DNA of 64,000 nt from Candidatus Dormiibacterota bacterium (lineage in GTDB: Bacteria > Acidobacteriota > Polarisedimenticolia > Gp22-AA2): positions 1-64,000 of the forward strand of contig DASQAT010000046.1 of NCBI GenBank assembly GCA_035635555.1. The letters run 5' to 3'. The notes under the pieces are model-generated. The model was not told where the DNA came from and did not search any database. It saw only the letters and a list, made by a program, of their open reading frames with translations. A program made the position numbers and the translations under genes. Positions 1 to 4,170 of the stretch are shown here, piece by piece. Position 1 is the stretch's first letter. The number at the start of each line of letters is the position of its first letter.

Positions 1-1
1 C

Positions 2-202
2 TACTGGCACGCGTGGGGGATCACGCTCGCCGCCCTGGCGATCTCCTTTGTCGGACTCCTCGGCCTGGGGCTGGGGTTCCTGGTGACGAGCGTCTGGTTC
101 TGGCAGGTCGCCGGGTACAGCTTCGCCACGGTGTTCTCGCAGCGCTTCGACCTGTTCGGCACACACCCGACGTCCGGCGATGAGCCGGTCCGCCGGCGGT
201 GA
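2..202 (+). CDS. C-terminal fragment of an integral membrane protein (5' end outside window)
   Basis: The frame is open from the window edge to a TGA at 200-202 and encodes 66 residues. Most of the fragment is two hydrophobic stretches (ITLAALAISFVGLLGLGLGF and the region around VWFWQVAGYSF), followed by a polar, arginine-rich tail ending in RRR. This fits a protein whose last membrane segments are followed by a short cytoplasmic tail. No catalytic motif is visible and the family cannot be named from this piece. It converges on the antitoxin gene, with only 8 bases between the two stops. Confidence 0.55.
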   Translation, partial: YWHAWGITLAALAISFVGLLGLGLGFLVTSVWFWQVAGYSFATVFSQRFDLFGTHPTSGDEPVRRR

Positions 203-210
203 CAGGTGCC

Positions 211-525
211 TTATGCGACTTTCAGGTTCCGACGGCCTGGCTTGACGCTCAGGTGAACCCGCGCTCCGAGGCGAGCCAACATGTCGATGAGAGCGTCGGT
301 GCTGAAGAGATCGATCCGACCGCGGAGAAGGTCACTGACGCGCGGCTGGGACACGCGCAGCACCTTCGCTGCCTCCCGCTGCTTGAGGCGGCGAGTCGTG
401 ATGAGCTTCTGGACCTGGATCATCAGATCCGCGCGGACAAGAAGATGCTCGGCCTCCTCGCGACGGAAGCCGAGATCCCGGAACACGTTGCCGGTCGAGG
501 GCGTTACCTTGAGCTTCGTGGTCAC
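211..525 (-). CDS. HigA-type antitoxin, XRE-family helix-turn-helix protein
   Basis: A 104-residue protein with a helix-turn-helix in its middle: residues about 45-75 include QREAAKVLRVSQPRVSDLL, where 'SQPRVSDLLRGR' is the recognition helix. It is expected to bind and neutralise the toxin encoded just upstream and to repress the shared promoter. The start is a GTG at 523-525. The purine-rich GGGAGGA that serves as its ribosome-binding site lies inside the last codons of the toxin gene, and one base separates the toxin stop from this start, so translation is probably coupled. Toxin-first gene order is typical of higBA modules. The family call is strong; the symbol is left blank because many related XRE antitoxins exist. 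Confidence 0.88.
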   Translation of the reverse strand: MTTKLKVTPSTGNVFRDLGFRREEAEHLLVRADLMIQVQKLITTRRLKQREAAKVLRVSQPRVSDLLRGRIDLFSTDALIDMLARLGARVHLSVKPGRRNLKVA

Positions 526-526
526 T

Positions 527-877
527 CTATCCTCCCGTCAAATGCCCAGTACGCCGCTGAGCGAGCAGAGCTCGGAATCGTTCGCTGGCGAGTTCTACGT
601 CGACTTTAGGTGTCTTTCTCGTGCGCTTCTCGAACGCATGGAGCACATAGACGGCCTCCACGAACTTGGCGACATACAGGACGCGGTGCTCGAGCGCCGT
701 GTGGATCCGAATCTCCCGGACTCCCGGCCCGATGGTTGGCATGTGTTTCGAATCCAGCGGCTCCAAGCCTTGCTGGACACGGCGAAGCTGAAACCCTCCC
801 AGTCGCCTGGCAGCCCTGGGAAAAGCGCGAATGTCCCTGCGCGAGCTGCCGAGCCACTGGAGCCGCTTGTCGGACAC
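527..877 (-). CDS. HigB/RelE-like toxin, phage-derived Gp49-like family
   Basis: A 116-residue protein matching the Gp49-like HigB family: the N-terminal 'WLGSSRRDIRAFP', then 'RRVQQGLEPLDSKHMP', 'GPGVREIRIHTALEHRVLYVAKF' and 'VYVLHAFEKRTRKTP'. Members are RelE-fold mRNA interferases that cut mRNA on the ribosome. The pattern is complete, so the toxin looks intact. The start is a GTG at 875-877. A near-consensus promoter (883-911) would begin transcription within a base or two of that GTG, so the message is likely leaderless. It is the first gene of the operon, followed by the antitoxin after a single base. Function is inferred from family; the residues needed for RNA cleavage cannot be tested here. 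Confidence 0.88.
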   Translation of the reverse strand: MSDKRLQWLGSSRRDIRAFPRAARRLGGFQLRRVQQGLEPLDSKHMPTIGPGVREIRIHTALEHRVLYVAKFVEAVYVLHAFEKRTRKTPKVDVELASERFRALLAQRRTGHLTGG

Positions 878-882
878 GGCTC

Positions 883-911
883 AATATATAAGTACTTGTA
901 TGTACGGTCAA
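883..911 (-). promoter_or_regulatory. Promoter of the toxin-antitoxin operon with a palindromic operator candidate in the spacer
   Basis: On the minus strand, TTGACC (906-911), a 17-base spacer and TATATT (883-888) form a near-consensus sigma70-type promoter. The spacer holds the imperfect palindrome GTACATACAAGTAC (892-905), well placed for antitoxin autorepression. Transcription would start near 876, essentially on the toxin GTG. The same 77-base gap feeds the divergent dnaE2 gene. Confidence 0.72.
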
Positions 912-954
912 GCGCAAAGTGGAGATGCCTGTTGGGGACGACGGAGTTGATGCC

Positions 955-3900
955 GTGAACGATCCCGGGTTTGTCCACCTCCAAGTCCGTTCGCACTACA
1001 GCCTGATGCGCGGTGCTTCGAGCCTGGAGGCGCTGTGCGATGCCGCGGCCGGGCGCGGCATGCGGGCGATCGCCTGCACCGACGTCGACGGATTGTACGG
1101 GGTCGTCCGTTTCCGGGAGATCGCCCTGGAGTGCGGACTGCGGCCGATCCTCGGGGCCGAGGTGACGTCGCCCGAGGCGGGGCGCGCGCGGGCGGGGGAG
1201 AGGGCGACGCTCCTGGTGAAGACGGCTGAGGGGTACGCCAACCTCTGCCGCATCCTGACGCGGCGGCACCTCGACCCCGGCTTCTCGGTCCAGGACGCGC
1301 TGCGGGATGATTCGGCGGGGCTTCTCGTTCTGTCGCCGTCGCTCGCCGTCCTGCGGGCGGCGCTCGAGGCGAAAGGACCGCGCGACCTCTACCTGGCGCT
1401 GAGGTCGTCGGCCGCCCCGTCGGCCGCGGAGGGGACATTCGAAAGGCTGCGCGCGGTGCGGCGGCTCGGGATCGAGCCGGTCGCGGTCAACGACGTGCAC
1501 TTCGTGGACGCGGGCGGCTTCGACCTGCACCGGCTTTTGCGCGCCATCGCCCTCAACACGACGCTCGACCGCGTCCCGCCTGAAGAGCTGGCCTCGTCCC
1601 AGGCGTGGCTGAAGCCGCCCGCCGAGATGGAGCGCGCCTACCCGCACTGCCCGGAGGCGCTCGCGGCGACGGCGCGCATCGCCGAGGAGTGCGTCCTCGA
1701 TAAGCCGCCCTGGGGCGCGCTCGTCTTCCCGCGCTTCGCCGATCTGTCGATCGACGGCGCACCGGCGGACCCGGGGGGCGACTCGTTTACCCTGCTGAAG
1801 ACGCGCTGCGAGGAGGGGGCGCGCCGGCGTTACGGTGCCATCACCCCCGCCGTGCGCGCCCGGCTCGACCACGAGCTGGGGATCATCCGCGACAAGCGGT
1901 TCGCCGACTACTTCCTCGTCGTGCAGGAGATCGTGAAGCGCTCGCCTCGTACCTGTGGCCGGGGCTCGGCGGCGGCGTCGATCGTCTCCTACGTCCTCGG
2001 CATCACGCACGTCGAGCCGATCAGGCACGACCTGTACTTCGAGCGCTTCCTGAACCGCGGCCGCGTCGATCCCCCCGACATCGACGTGGACTTCTGCTGG
2101 GACGAGCGCGACGACCTGCTCGACTGGGTGTTCAAGACGATCGGCGAGGAGCGCACCGCGATGATCGCCAACCACGTCACCTTCAGGGCGCGCGCCGCGG
2201 TGCGCGAGGTGGCGAAGGTGTACGGCCTGCCCGACGCCGAGATCGCCCGGGTTGCGACCGGCCTGTCGCGCTACTGGGGGGCCGAGACGGCGCTCGAGGC
2301 GACGGCGCGCAGTCCGTTGTTCCGCGGCGGGGAGTTCGACCCGAAGCAGGGGGGCATGCTGGCGCGGCCGCCGTGGCCGGAGATCCTGCGCGCGGCCGCG
2401 CGTCTCGACGGCTTCCCGCGCCACCTGTCGGTGCACTGCGGCGGCGTGGTCATCGCCCCGGAGGGCGTCGAACGCCACGTGCCGGTCGAGCGCGCCGCCA
2501 AGGGGGTGCGGGTCATCCAGTGGGAGAAGGACCAGGCGGAGGAGGCCGGCCTGGTGAAGATCGATCTCCTGGGGAACAGGTCGCTGTCGGTCATCCGCGA
2601 CGCCTGCGCCGCGGTGCGCGCGGCGGGCGGGCCGGACCTGCCGTACGGCTCGTTCGATCCGATCGACGATCCGCGCACACAGGAGAAGATGCGCGACGGC
2701 GACACGATGGGGGTGTTCTACGTCGAGTCGCCCGCCATGCGGCAGCTGCAGCAGAAGACGCGCCGCGGCGACTTCGAGCACCTGGTCATCCACTCGTCGA
2801 TGATCCGGCCGGCGGCCAACGACTACATCCGCGAGTACGTGAGGCGGCTGCGCGGCGGCGCCTGGACGTCGCTCCACCCGATCCTGGACGAGGTGCTGCA
2901 CGAGACCTACGGGATCATGTGCTACCAGGAGGACGTGGCGCGCACGGCTATCCGCATGGCCGGGTTCACCGACGCCGAGGCGGACGGGCTGCGCAAGGTC
3001 CTGTCGAAGAAATGGGCGGGGAAGAAGGTCGAGGACTACCGGCAGCAGTTCACCCGGGGCGCGCTCGCGCGCGGCGTGGCGCCGCACGTCGTCGAGGAAG
3101 TCTGGCGGATGATCCTGTCGTTCTCCGGCTACTCGTTCTGCAAGCCGCACTCGGCGTCGTACGCGCTCGTGTCGTTCAAGTCCTGCTACCTGAAAGCGCA
3201 CCACCCGGCGGAATTCATGGCGGCGGTCATCAGCAACGGCGGCGGCTACTACTCGACCTTCGCCTACGTCTCCGAGTGCCGGCGGATGGGGCTCGAGGTC
3301 CTGCCGCCCGACGTCAACGACAGCGACAAGGCGTACACCGGGCGGGACCGGCGGGTGCGCGTCGGATTGATGCAGATCAAGGGGCTGCGCGACGAGGCGG
3401 TCGAGGCGGTCGTCGGAGAGCGGAAGGGGGGCGGGCCGTTCGCCTCGTTCGACGAGTTCCTCAGGCGCGTGCCGATCGATCCCTCCGACGCGCGGCTCCT
3501 CATCCGCGCCGGTGTGTTCGACGCCGTCGGCTTCGGCGCGAACGGCCGTCCGGCCCGAGCCGCCCCGGACCTGGCGATCCGGCCGCGCCTGCACTGGCGC
3601 CTCGCCGAGTGGGAGGTGAAGACGGGGGGGCGGTGCTCGGCGGCGCGCTCGCTGTTTCCTCCCGATCTCGGCCCTTTGCCCGAGCCGCGGTCGTACGACG
3701 AGAAGCATCTCCTGCGGGACGAGGCGGACACGCTCGGTTTTCTGGTGAGCCGCCATCCGCTGACGCTGTACCGCGGGCACCTCCTGGCGCTGCGGCGATC
3801 CGGCACGATACCGGTGCGCGCCACCGCCCTGAAGGAGCACGTCGGCCGGCGCGTGACCACGATCGGCTGGCTGATCACGGGCAAGGTCGTGACCACGAAA

Positions 3901-4170
3901 GACGACGAGCCGATGGAGTTCATCTCCTTCGAGGACACCACGGCGATCTACGAGACGACCTTCTTCCCGCGCGTCTACGAGCGCTTCTGCCGGATGCTGA
4001 CGACGGCGCGGCCGTACGTGCTGAGGGGGAGGATCGAGGAGGACTTCGGCGCGCTGGCGATGACGGTCGAGGACGTGGAGTTTCTCGACCGCGCGGCGCC
4101 GGGTCGCGGCGCGCAGCGCCCGGCGCCGCCCGATCGCGATTACAATGACGCGGTCGCGGGTCCTTCATGA
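955..4170 (+). CDS. dnaE2: Error-prone DNA polymerase DnaE2 (C-family alpha subunit)
   Basis: A 1071-residue replicative-type C-family polymerase used in translesion synthesis. In order it shows an N-terminal PHP domain (RSHYSLMRGAS..., ACTDVDGLYG), the palm with catalytic aspartates in PDIDVDF (about residue 375), the polymerase core including GRGSAAASIVSYVLGI, a helix-hairpin-helix region, and a C-terminal OB fold (VTTIGWLITGKVVTTKDDEPMEF). The length and the short C-terminus match DnaE2 rather than replicative DnaE1. GTG at 955 was chosen because GGAG lies 8 bases upstream and the PHP domain begins directly after it; GTG 919 and ATG 925 are in-frame alternatives. DnaE2 usually acts with ImuA and ImuB, but neither is adjacent. 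The upstream neighbour is instead a divergent toxin-antitoxin operon. Confidence 0.93.
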   Translation: MNDPGFVHLQVRSHYSLMRGASSLEALCDAAAGRGMRAIACTDVDGLYGVVRFREIALECGLRPILGAEVTSPEAGRARAGERATLLVKTAEGYANLCRILTRRHLDPGFSVQDALRDDSAGLLVLSPSLAVLRAALEAKGPRDLYLALRSSAAPSAAEGTFERLRAVRRLGIEPVAVNDVHFVDAGGFDLHRLLRAIALNTTLDRVPPEELASSQAWLKPPAEMERAYPHCPEALAATARIAEECVLDKPPWGALVFPRFADLSIDGAPADPGGDSFTLLKTRCEEGARRRYGAITPAVRARLDHELGIIRDKRFADYFLVVQEIVKRSPRTCGRGSAAASIVSYVLGITHVEPIRHDLYFERFLNRGRVDPPDIDVDFCWDERDDLLDWVFKTIGEERTAMIANHVTFRARAAVREVAKVYGLPDAEIARVATGLSRYWGAETALEATARSPLFRGGEFDPKQGGMLARPPWPEILRAAARLDGFPRHLSVHCGGVVIAPEGVERHVPVERAAKGVRVIQWEKDQAEEAGLVKIDLLGNRSLSVIRDACAAVRAAGGPDLPYGSFDPIDDPRTQEKMRDGDTMGVFYVESPAMRQLQQKTRRGDFEHLVIHSSMIRPAANDYIREYVRRLRGGAWTSLHPILDEVLHETYGIMCYQEDVARTAIRMAGFTDAEADGLRKVLSKKWAGKKVEDYRQQFTRGALARGVAPHVVEEVWRMILSFSGYSFCKPHSASYALVSFKSCYLKAHHPAEFMAAVISNGGGYYSTFAYVSECRRMGLEVLPPDVNDSDKAYTGRDRRVRVGLMQIKGLRDEAVEAVVGERKGGGPFASFDEFLRRVPIDPSDARLLIRAGVFDAVGFGANGRPARAAPDLAIRPRLHWRLAEWEVKTGGRCSAARSLFPPDLGPLPEPRSYDEKHLLRDEADTLGFLVSRHPLTLYRGHLLALRRSGTIPVRATALKEHVGRRVTTIGWLITGKVVTTKDDEPMEFISFEDTTAIYETTFFPRVYERFCRMLTTARPYVLRGRIEEDFGALAMTVEDVEFLDRAAPGRGAQRPAPPDRDYNDAVAGPS

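Follow-up and report, generated by a model that had tools for sequence, protein, structure and literature searches.

The locus considered here raises the question of whether one short stretch of DNA controls two divergent transcription units. The window (the whole stretch of 64,000 nucleotides that was analysed) is the first 64 kb of C46, a 423-kb contig in a 4.28-Mb metagenome bin, and very probably belongs to Acidobacteriota. An earlier note had proposed that the 77 bp at 878–954, which indeed separate the minus-strand toxin GTG at 877 from the dnaE2 GTG at 955, form a single control region, in which an antitoxin bound to a palindrome could repress or activate the divergent dnaE2 promoter and thereby link toxin release to mutagenic repair. 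The account that we regard as probable is a different one: a mobile toxin-antitoxin unit would have inserted before dnaE2, with autorepression at 886–901, a leaderless toxin mRNA, and expression of dnaE2 by read-through.

Genes of the locus

From its left edge, the window carries the 3′ end of a gene for a DUF4013-like membrane protein (2–202, plus strand; at the nucleotide level 93% identical to the terminal part of contig C26, from the same bin), a higA-like antitoxin gene (211–525, minus strand), a higB-like toxin gene with a GTG start (527–877, minus strand), and dnaE2, also with a GTG start (955–4170, plus strand). Profile matches confirmed that the earlier gene calls were right in kind: the antitoxin belongs to HTH_37 (PF13744; E-value, 1.6e-24), the toxin to the Gp49 family of the RelE/ParE superfamily (PF05973; E-value, 3.1e-21), and the polymerase to the DnaE family. 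The toxin gene precedes the antitoxin gene, and its stop adjoins the antitoxin start, which places the HTH antitoxin second in the operon. The toxin weakly matches the solved HigB toxin 6af3 in sequence (6.4e-04), and scores 17.2 bits against the narrow NCBIfam family TIGR02683, below the curated cut-off of 62.85. Together, the two genes form a higBA-like type II toxin-antitoxin system (Gp49/HTH_37), with toxicity, neutralisation and autorepression predicted.

Relatives of the antitoxin were found in 75 of 396 genomes of the same phylum; in the named genomes, 148 related stretches were collected, of which 80 loci were kept. These 80 loci span Acidobacteriota, Nitrospirota, Rokubacteria, Methylomirabilota, Deltaproteobacteria, Gemmatimonadota, and others. 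In a Nitrospirae copy (L090, 1190–1620), the toxin gene is mostly deleted, while the promoter, operator and antitoxin are kept. Seven relatives of the module (L097, L108, L117, L143, L147, L151 and L153) have attC-like sites alongside (RYYYAAC...GTTRRRY, with paired arms) and probably lie in integron cassettes. An integron-cassette origin was also considered for the window copy and rejected, as no attC site lies within the window, unlike in several of these relatives.

The product of dnaE2, the second DnaE of the genome, is 1071 aa long, compared with an open frame of 1180 aa for the other DnaE, which passes the DnaE1 cut-offs. Against the error-prone DNA polymerase model PRK05672 it scores 588 bits (curated cut-off, 939), and the sole DnaE cut-off that it reaches is that of the superfamily model TIGR00594. 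The name DnaE2 thus rests on synteny and length, the error-prone activity being putative; by synteny, the gene is the native last member of a lexA-imuB-dnaE2 cassette. A Shine–Dalgarno-like GGAG can be read at 943–946, 8 nt before the GTG at 955.

The leftward promoter and its operator

The near-consensus leftward promoter described in the earlier note is real. On the minus strand, the −35 element TTGACC (911–906) and the −10 element TATATT (888–883) are separated by 17 nt and match the consensus at 10 of 12 positions (shuffle mean, 0.0); in 400 stretches drawn at random from the window, no equally good promoter occurs. A matrix built from the relatives only, with the window left out, gives the promoter site 43 bits, compared with 2.4 bits for the next unrelated match in the 64 kb. 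The −35 element is kept in the relatives. The DNA before the toxin gene was readable in 58 of the collected relatives, and 51 of these upstream regions, from Acidobacteriota, Nitrospirota, Rokubacteria, Deltaproteobacteria and others, align as TTGAC-N6-8-ATACnAnnACTTGYATAnT, with the operator lying over the −10 element. After dereplication to 41 sequences, this motif carries 23.2 bits, in comparison with 6.7 bits in shuffles (maximum, 7.3).

The position of the palindrome required correction. The imperfect palindrome that had been proposed as the promoter spacer, GTACATACAAGTAC (minus strand), is present at 892–905, but it pairs at 5 of 7 positions, which is reached in 50% of shuffled gaps (P, 0.50), and its symmetry is not conserved in the relatives (0.30); it was therefore rejected as the operator. 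Its right half on the minus strand falls inside a second, overlapping palindrome, ATACAAGTACTTATAT (886–901, minus strand), which pairs at 7 of 8 positions (P about 0.017 in the gap) and is kept in 51 of the 58 homologous upstream regions. In the family matrix, symmetry is centred exactly on 886–901 (0.58, the best of all centres tried). Since ATACAAGTACTTATAT overlaps the −10 element, it is not a spacer-only element. It is the sole site in the genome with up to two mismatches to the family consensus, and therefore looks like a private operator outside any regulon.

The operator varies together with the antitoxin. Antitoxins with the recognition-helix region QPRVSDLLRGRI are mostly paired with sites of the ATAC-N8-GTAT type, while those with DQPKVSAL have, in five of five cases, TATGCY-N6-RGCATA in the same place over the −10 element, either as TATGCC-N6-GGCATA or as the variant TATGCT-N6-AGCATA. 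The antitoxin is thus the likely ligand of 886–901. Because the operator covaries with the recognition helix, the predicted autorepression by HigA is well supported. The same holds, on grounds of conservation as well as covariation, for the part of the earlier proposal in which a palindrome within its own promoter is the antitoxin's target, with the site moved to 886–901. The antitoxin, alone or together with the toxin, would bind over the −10 element, block RNA polymerase, and switch its own operon off.

Between the end of the −10 element and the toxin start codon there are 5 nt, and the toxin mRNA is therefore probably leaderless, starting at or beside the start codon. The same layout is seen in most relatives, in 43 of 51 of which the −10 element and the nominal toxin start are 5–7 nt apart. 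The operator and the leaderless layout appear to be consistent traits of the Gp49/HTH_37 family. With the operator of this widespread family corrected, a specific, testable rule follows: the type of recognition helix predicts the type of operator, and the toxin start lies 5–7 nt from the −10 element across several phyla.

The window module resembles known HigBA systems (the solved HigB/HigA pair 6af3, and the antitoxins HigA2, 7ewc, and HigA3, 6lty) in having the toxin first and the HTH antitoxin second, a palindrome in the promoter, and a RelE/ParE-like toxin. It differs in that the pair consists of PF05973 Gp49 and PF13744 HTH_37 proteins with weak sequence matches to the solved HigB/HigA, and in that an ATAC-N8-GTAT operator overlaps the −10 element, with the start codon 5 nt downstream. 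Leaderless translation of a first operon gene from a short divergent region (97 bp) has been described for paaR2-paaA2-parE2 of E. coli O157:H7 (PMC8630535); there the leaderless gene encodes the regulator, whereas in the window it would be the toxin.

Comparison with the empty site

In the same bin, contig C26 terminates with lexA-imuB-DUF4013-dnaE2 and lacks the module there; its dnaE2 gene is incomplete but retains its start. In this contig, lexA matches TIGR00498, imuB belongs to the IMS family and is followed by a complete DUF4013 gene (PF13197; 2.3e-06), which overlaps dnaE2 at ATGA. The C26 imuB has ALGQT at the place of the SLDEA-type catalytic motif and is thus probably inactive. Positions 1–197 of the window match one side of the C26 DUF4013–dnaE2 junction at 93%, and the sequence from 966 onward matches the other side at 86%. 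Wherever the flanks could be read in relatives from the genus, family and order, imuB or DUF4013 directly precedes dnaE2 and the module is absent. In genome G242 (L055), a related module shares homology confined to window positions 192–916, indicating that the promoter travels with the module. None of the 80 module relatives adjoins dnaE2, imuB or lexA.

The simplest account of these comparisons is an insert of about 756 bp, carrying the Gp49/HTH_37 module, at the DUF4013–dnaE2 junction. Compared with the empty site, the module and its promoter appear as an insertion into the SOS operon in this lineage only. Being a self-contained and horizontally moving type II unit (Gp49 toxin first, HTH_37 antitoxin second), it would have entered the mutasome operon lexA-imuB-DUF4013-dnaE2 in the opposite orientation, bringing its promoter with it. 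The inferred insertion (199–958) is bounded by GTGA at 199–202 and 955–958, which may be a 4-bp duplication that preserves the DUF4013 stop and the dnaE2 start, as dnaE2 begins with GTGAAC in G005 and with ATGAGCGATCC in G001; the match could also be due to chance. The exact ends are uncertain by about 10 bp, and no terminal inverted repeats were seen by eye at the ends of the insert. As the window starts at a contig edge, the presence of lexA and imuB upstream of its dnaE2 copy is inferred.

The DUF4013–dnaE2 junction thus occurs in two versions, both at contig ends (the end of L010, C26:179000–185404, and window 1–1361). The two versions of the dnaE2 5′ end are about equally far from members of the genus and family (84–88% nucleotide identity), so that the bin either mixes two lineages or holds two dnaE2 copies; the C26 allele, about 86% identical to that of the window, would accordingly come from the other lineage or from a second copy in the same genome. 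If there were two true copies, arising for example by tandem duplication of DUF4013–dnaE2, SOS would go on controlling the C26 copy, and the window copy, which follows the module, would be a spare. The two versions of the 5′ end within one bin fit this reading, and some genomes, one of them from Acidobacteria, combine one DnaE1 with two DnaE2 (PMC3919608). It is nevertheless unlikely, because a single dnaE2 is present in each of the other four genus members, the two versions are as divergent as those of different species, and both run off contig ends in the manner of strain variants.

Still less likely is an artefact at the contig edge, by which the module and dnaE2 were misjoined, or a bin of two species in which the adjacency would mean nothing. 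Such an error could be suspected from the fact that the window begins at base 1 of C46 and C26 ends in the same locus, with 86–93% identity in the overlap, and from the contamination estimate of 2.23% for the bin. Mixing of two lineages is likely, yet the adjacency within C46 is unbroken: the sequence runs without interruption from DUF4013 through the module into dnaE2, in the order expected, which makes insertion the simple reading, and the contig continues for 423 kb and carries the replicative dnaE.

Control of dnaE2 and known precedents

For the region upstream of dnaE2 (780–955), the best rightward promoter score was 6.5, which is matched by 49% of random stretches, and no candidate LexA operator TTCACCTGATTTACACCTA was found within the 64-kb window at up to three mismatches. 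In the whole genome, TTCACCTGATTTACACCTA occurs once, before lexA, and in several relatives it sits in the spacer of the lexA promoter; its role as a LexA box is a candidate one, inferred from these lexA promoters. In this lineage, it takes the form of a direct repeat, TTYAC-N6-TTACRCCTA, between the −35 and −10 elements of lexA (L010, 3060–3270; L043, L044, L049 and L053).

Since neither a rightward promoter could be detected in the gap nor a LexA box in the window, the most likely source of dnaE2 expression is read-through from the SOS operon upstream. The gene keeps its GTG at 955 and a ribosome-binding site, and transcripts from the lexA SOS promoter would reach it by running antisense through the module. 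Rho might stop this read-through before dnaE2, because the transcript would run for about 750 nt without a known gene on the sense strand.

Against this background, joint control of the two operons from the gap is very improbable. The idea draws on the distance of 77 bp between the start codons, with the operator about 54–69 bp upstream of dnaE2, from where antitoxin on the operator might in principle affect a rightward promoter close by or stop read-through, and on Caulobacter higBA, in which a toxin-antitoxin promoter is tied to SOS via LexA (PMC13384398). It is unsupported because the gap shows no dnaE2 promoter above background and the arrangement does not recur: the pairing with dnaE2, seen in one lineage only, is found in 0 of 80 module relatives, and it was likewise not found in the other dnaE-bearing loci of the relatives examined, while the operator is conserved in modules unrelated to dnaE2. 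The repressor site is a feature of the toxin-antitoxin family, with no sign that it evolved to control the polymerase.

Another connection, which we consider unlikely, is that SOS couples to the module by transcriptional interference. Upon LexA cleavage, antisense read-through would lower the synthesis of antitoxin and toxin, and the bound antitoxin would act as a roadblock that tunes dnaE2. Were this true, the arrangement of the genes would by itself tie SOS to mutagenesis and to toxin release, without any LexA box in the module.

The nearest precedent for the proposed insertion appears to be Caulobacter crescentus, in which higBA, of foreign origin, lies beside the ancestral higX and is controlled by HigA and LexA (PMC13384398). 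Both loci would have a foreign module inserted beside an ancestral gene and a connection to SOS; in Caulobacter, however, LexA binds the higBA promoter and the neighbour is downstream and co-directional, whereas in the window no LexA box was seen and dnaE2 is divergent. LexA-regulated imuA-imuB-dnaE2 mutasome cassettes have been described (PMC3919608). The relatives, and C26 as far as the contig end, resemble them in that a single operon holds lexA, a gene of the Y family and dnaE2. Differences from these cassettes are the DUF4013 gene before dnaE2 in the window lineage and in G003, and the toxin-antitoxin insert of the window copy. Among the papers searched, none of relevance combined toxin-antitoxin, dnaE2, operon and insertion. 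The locus would offer a natural case in which a toxin-antitoxin unit landed in an SOS mutasome operon and parted dnaE2 from its promoter, and it lets one ask what becomes of induced mutagenesis after such an insertion.

Two plus-strand ORFs run antisense to the module, 199–609 and 281–958, and meet DUF4013 and dnaE2, respectively, at GTGA. The possibility that they carry translation to dnaE2 was rejected, as synonymous resampling leaves such frames open in 43% and 69% of cases, respectively; their openness is ordinary and explained by chance. In G003 (L016, 1500–1510; L049, 4090–4100; G003:C104), the DUF4013 frame enters dnaE2 at residue 27 and the dnaE2 N-terminus is missing; either a fusion, a deletion, or a join introduced by the assembly would account for this.
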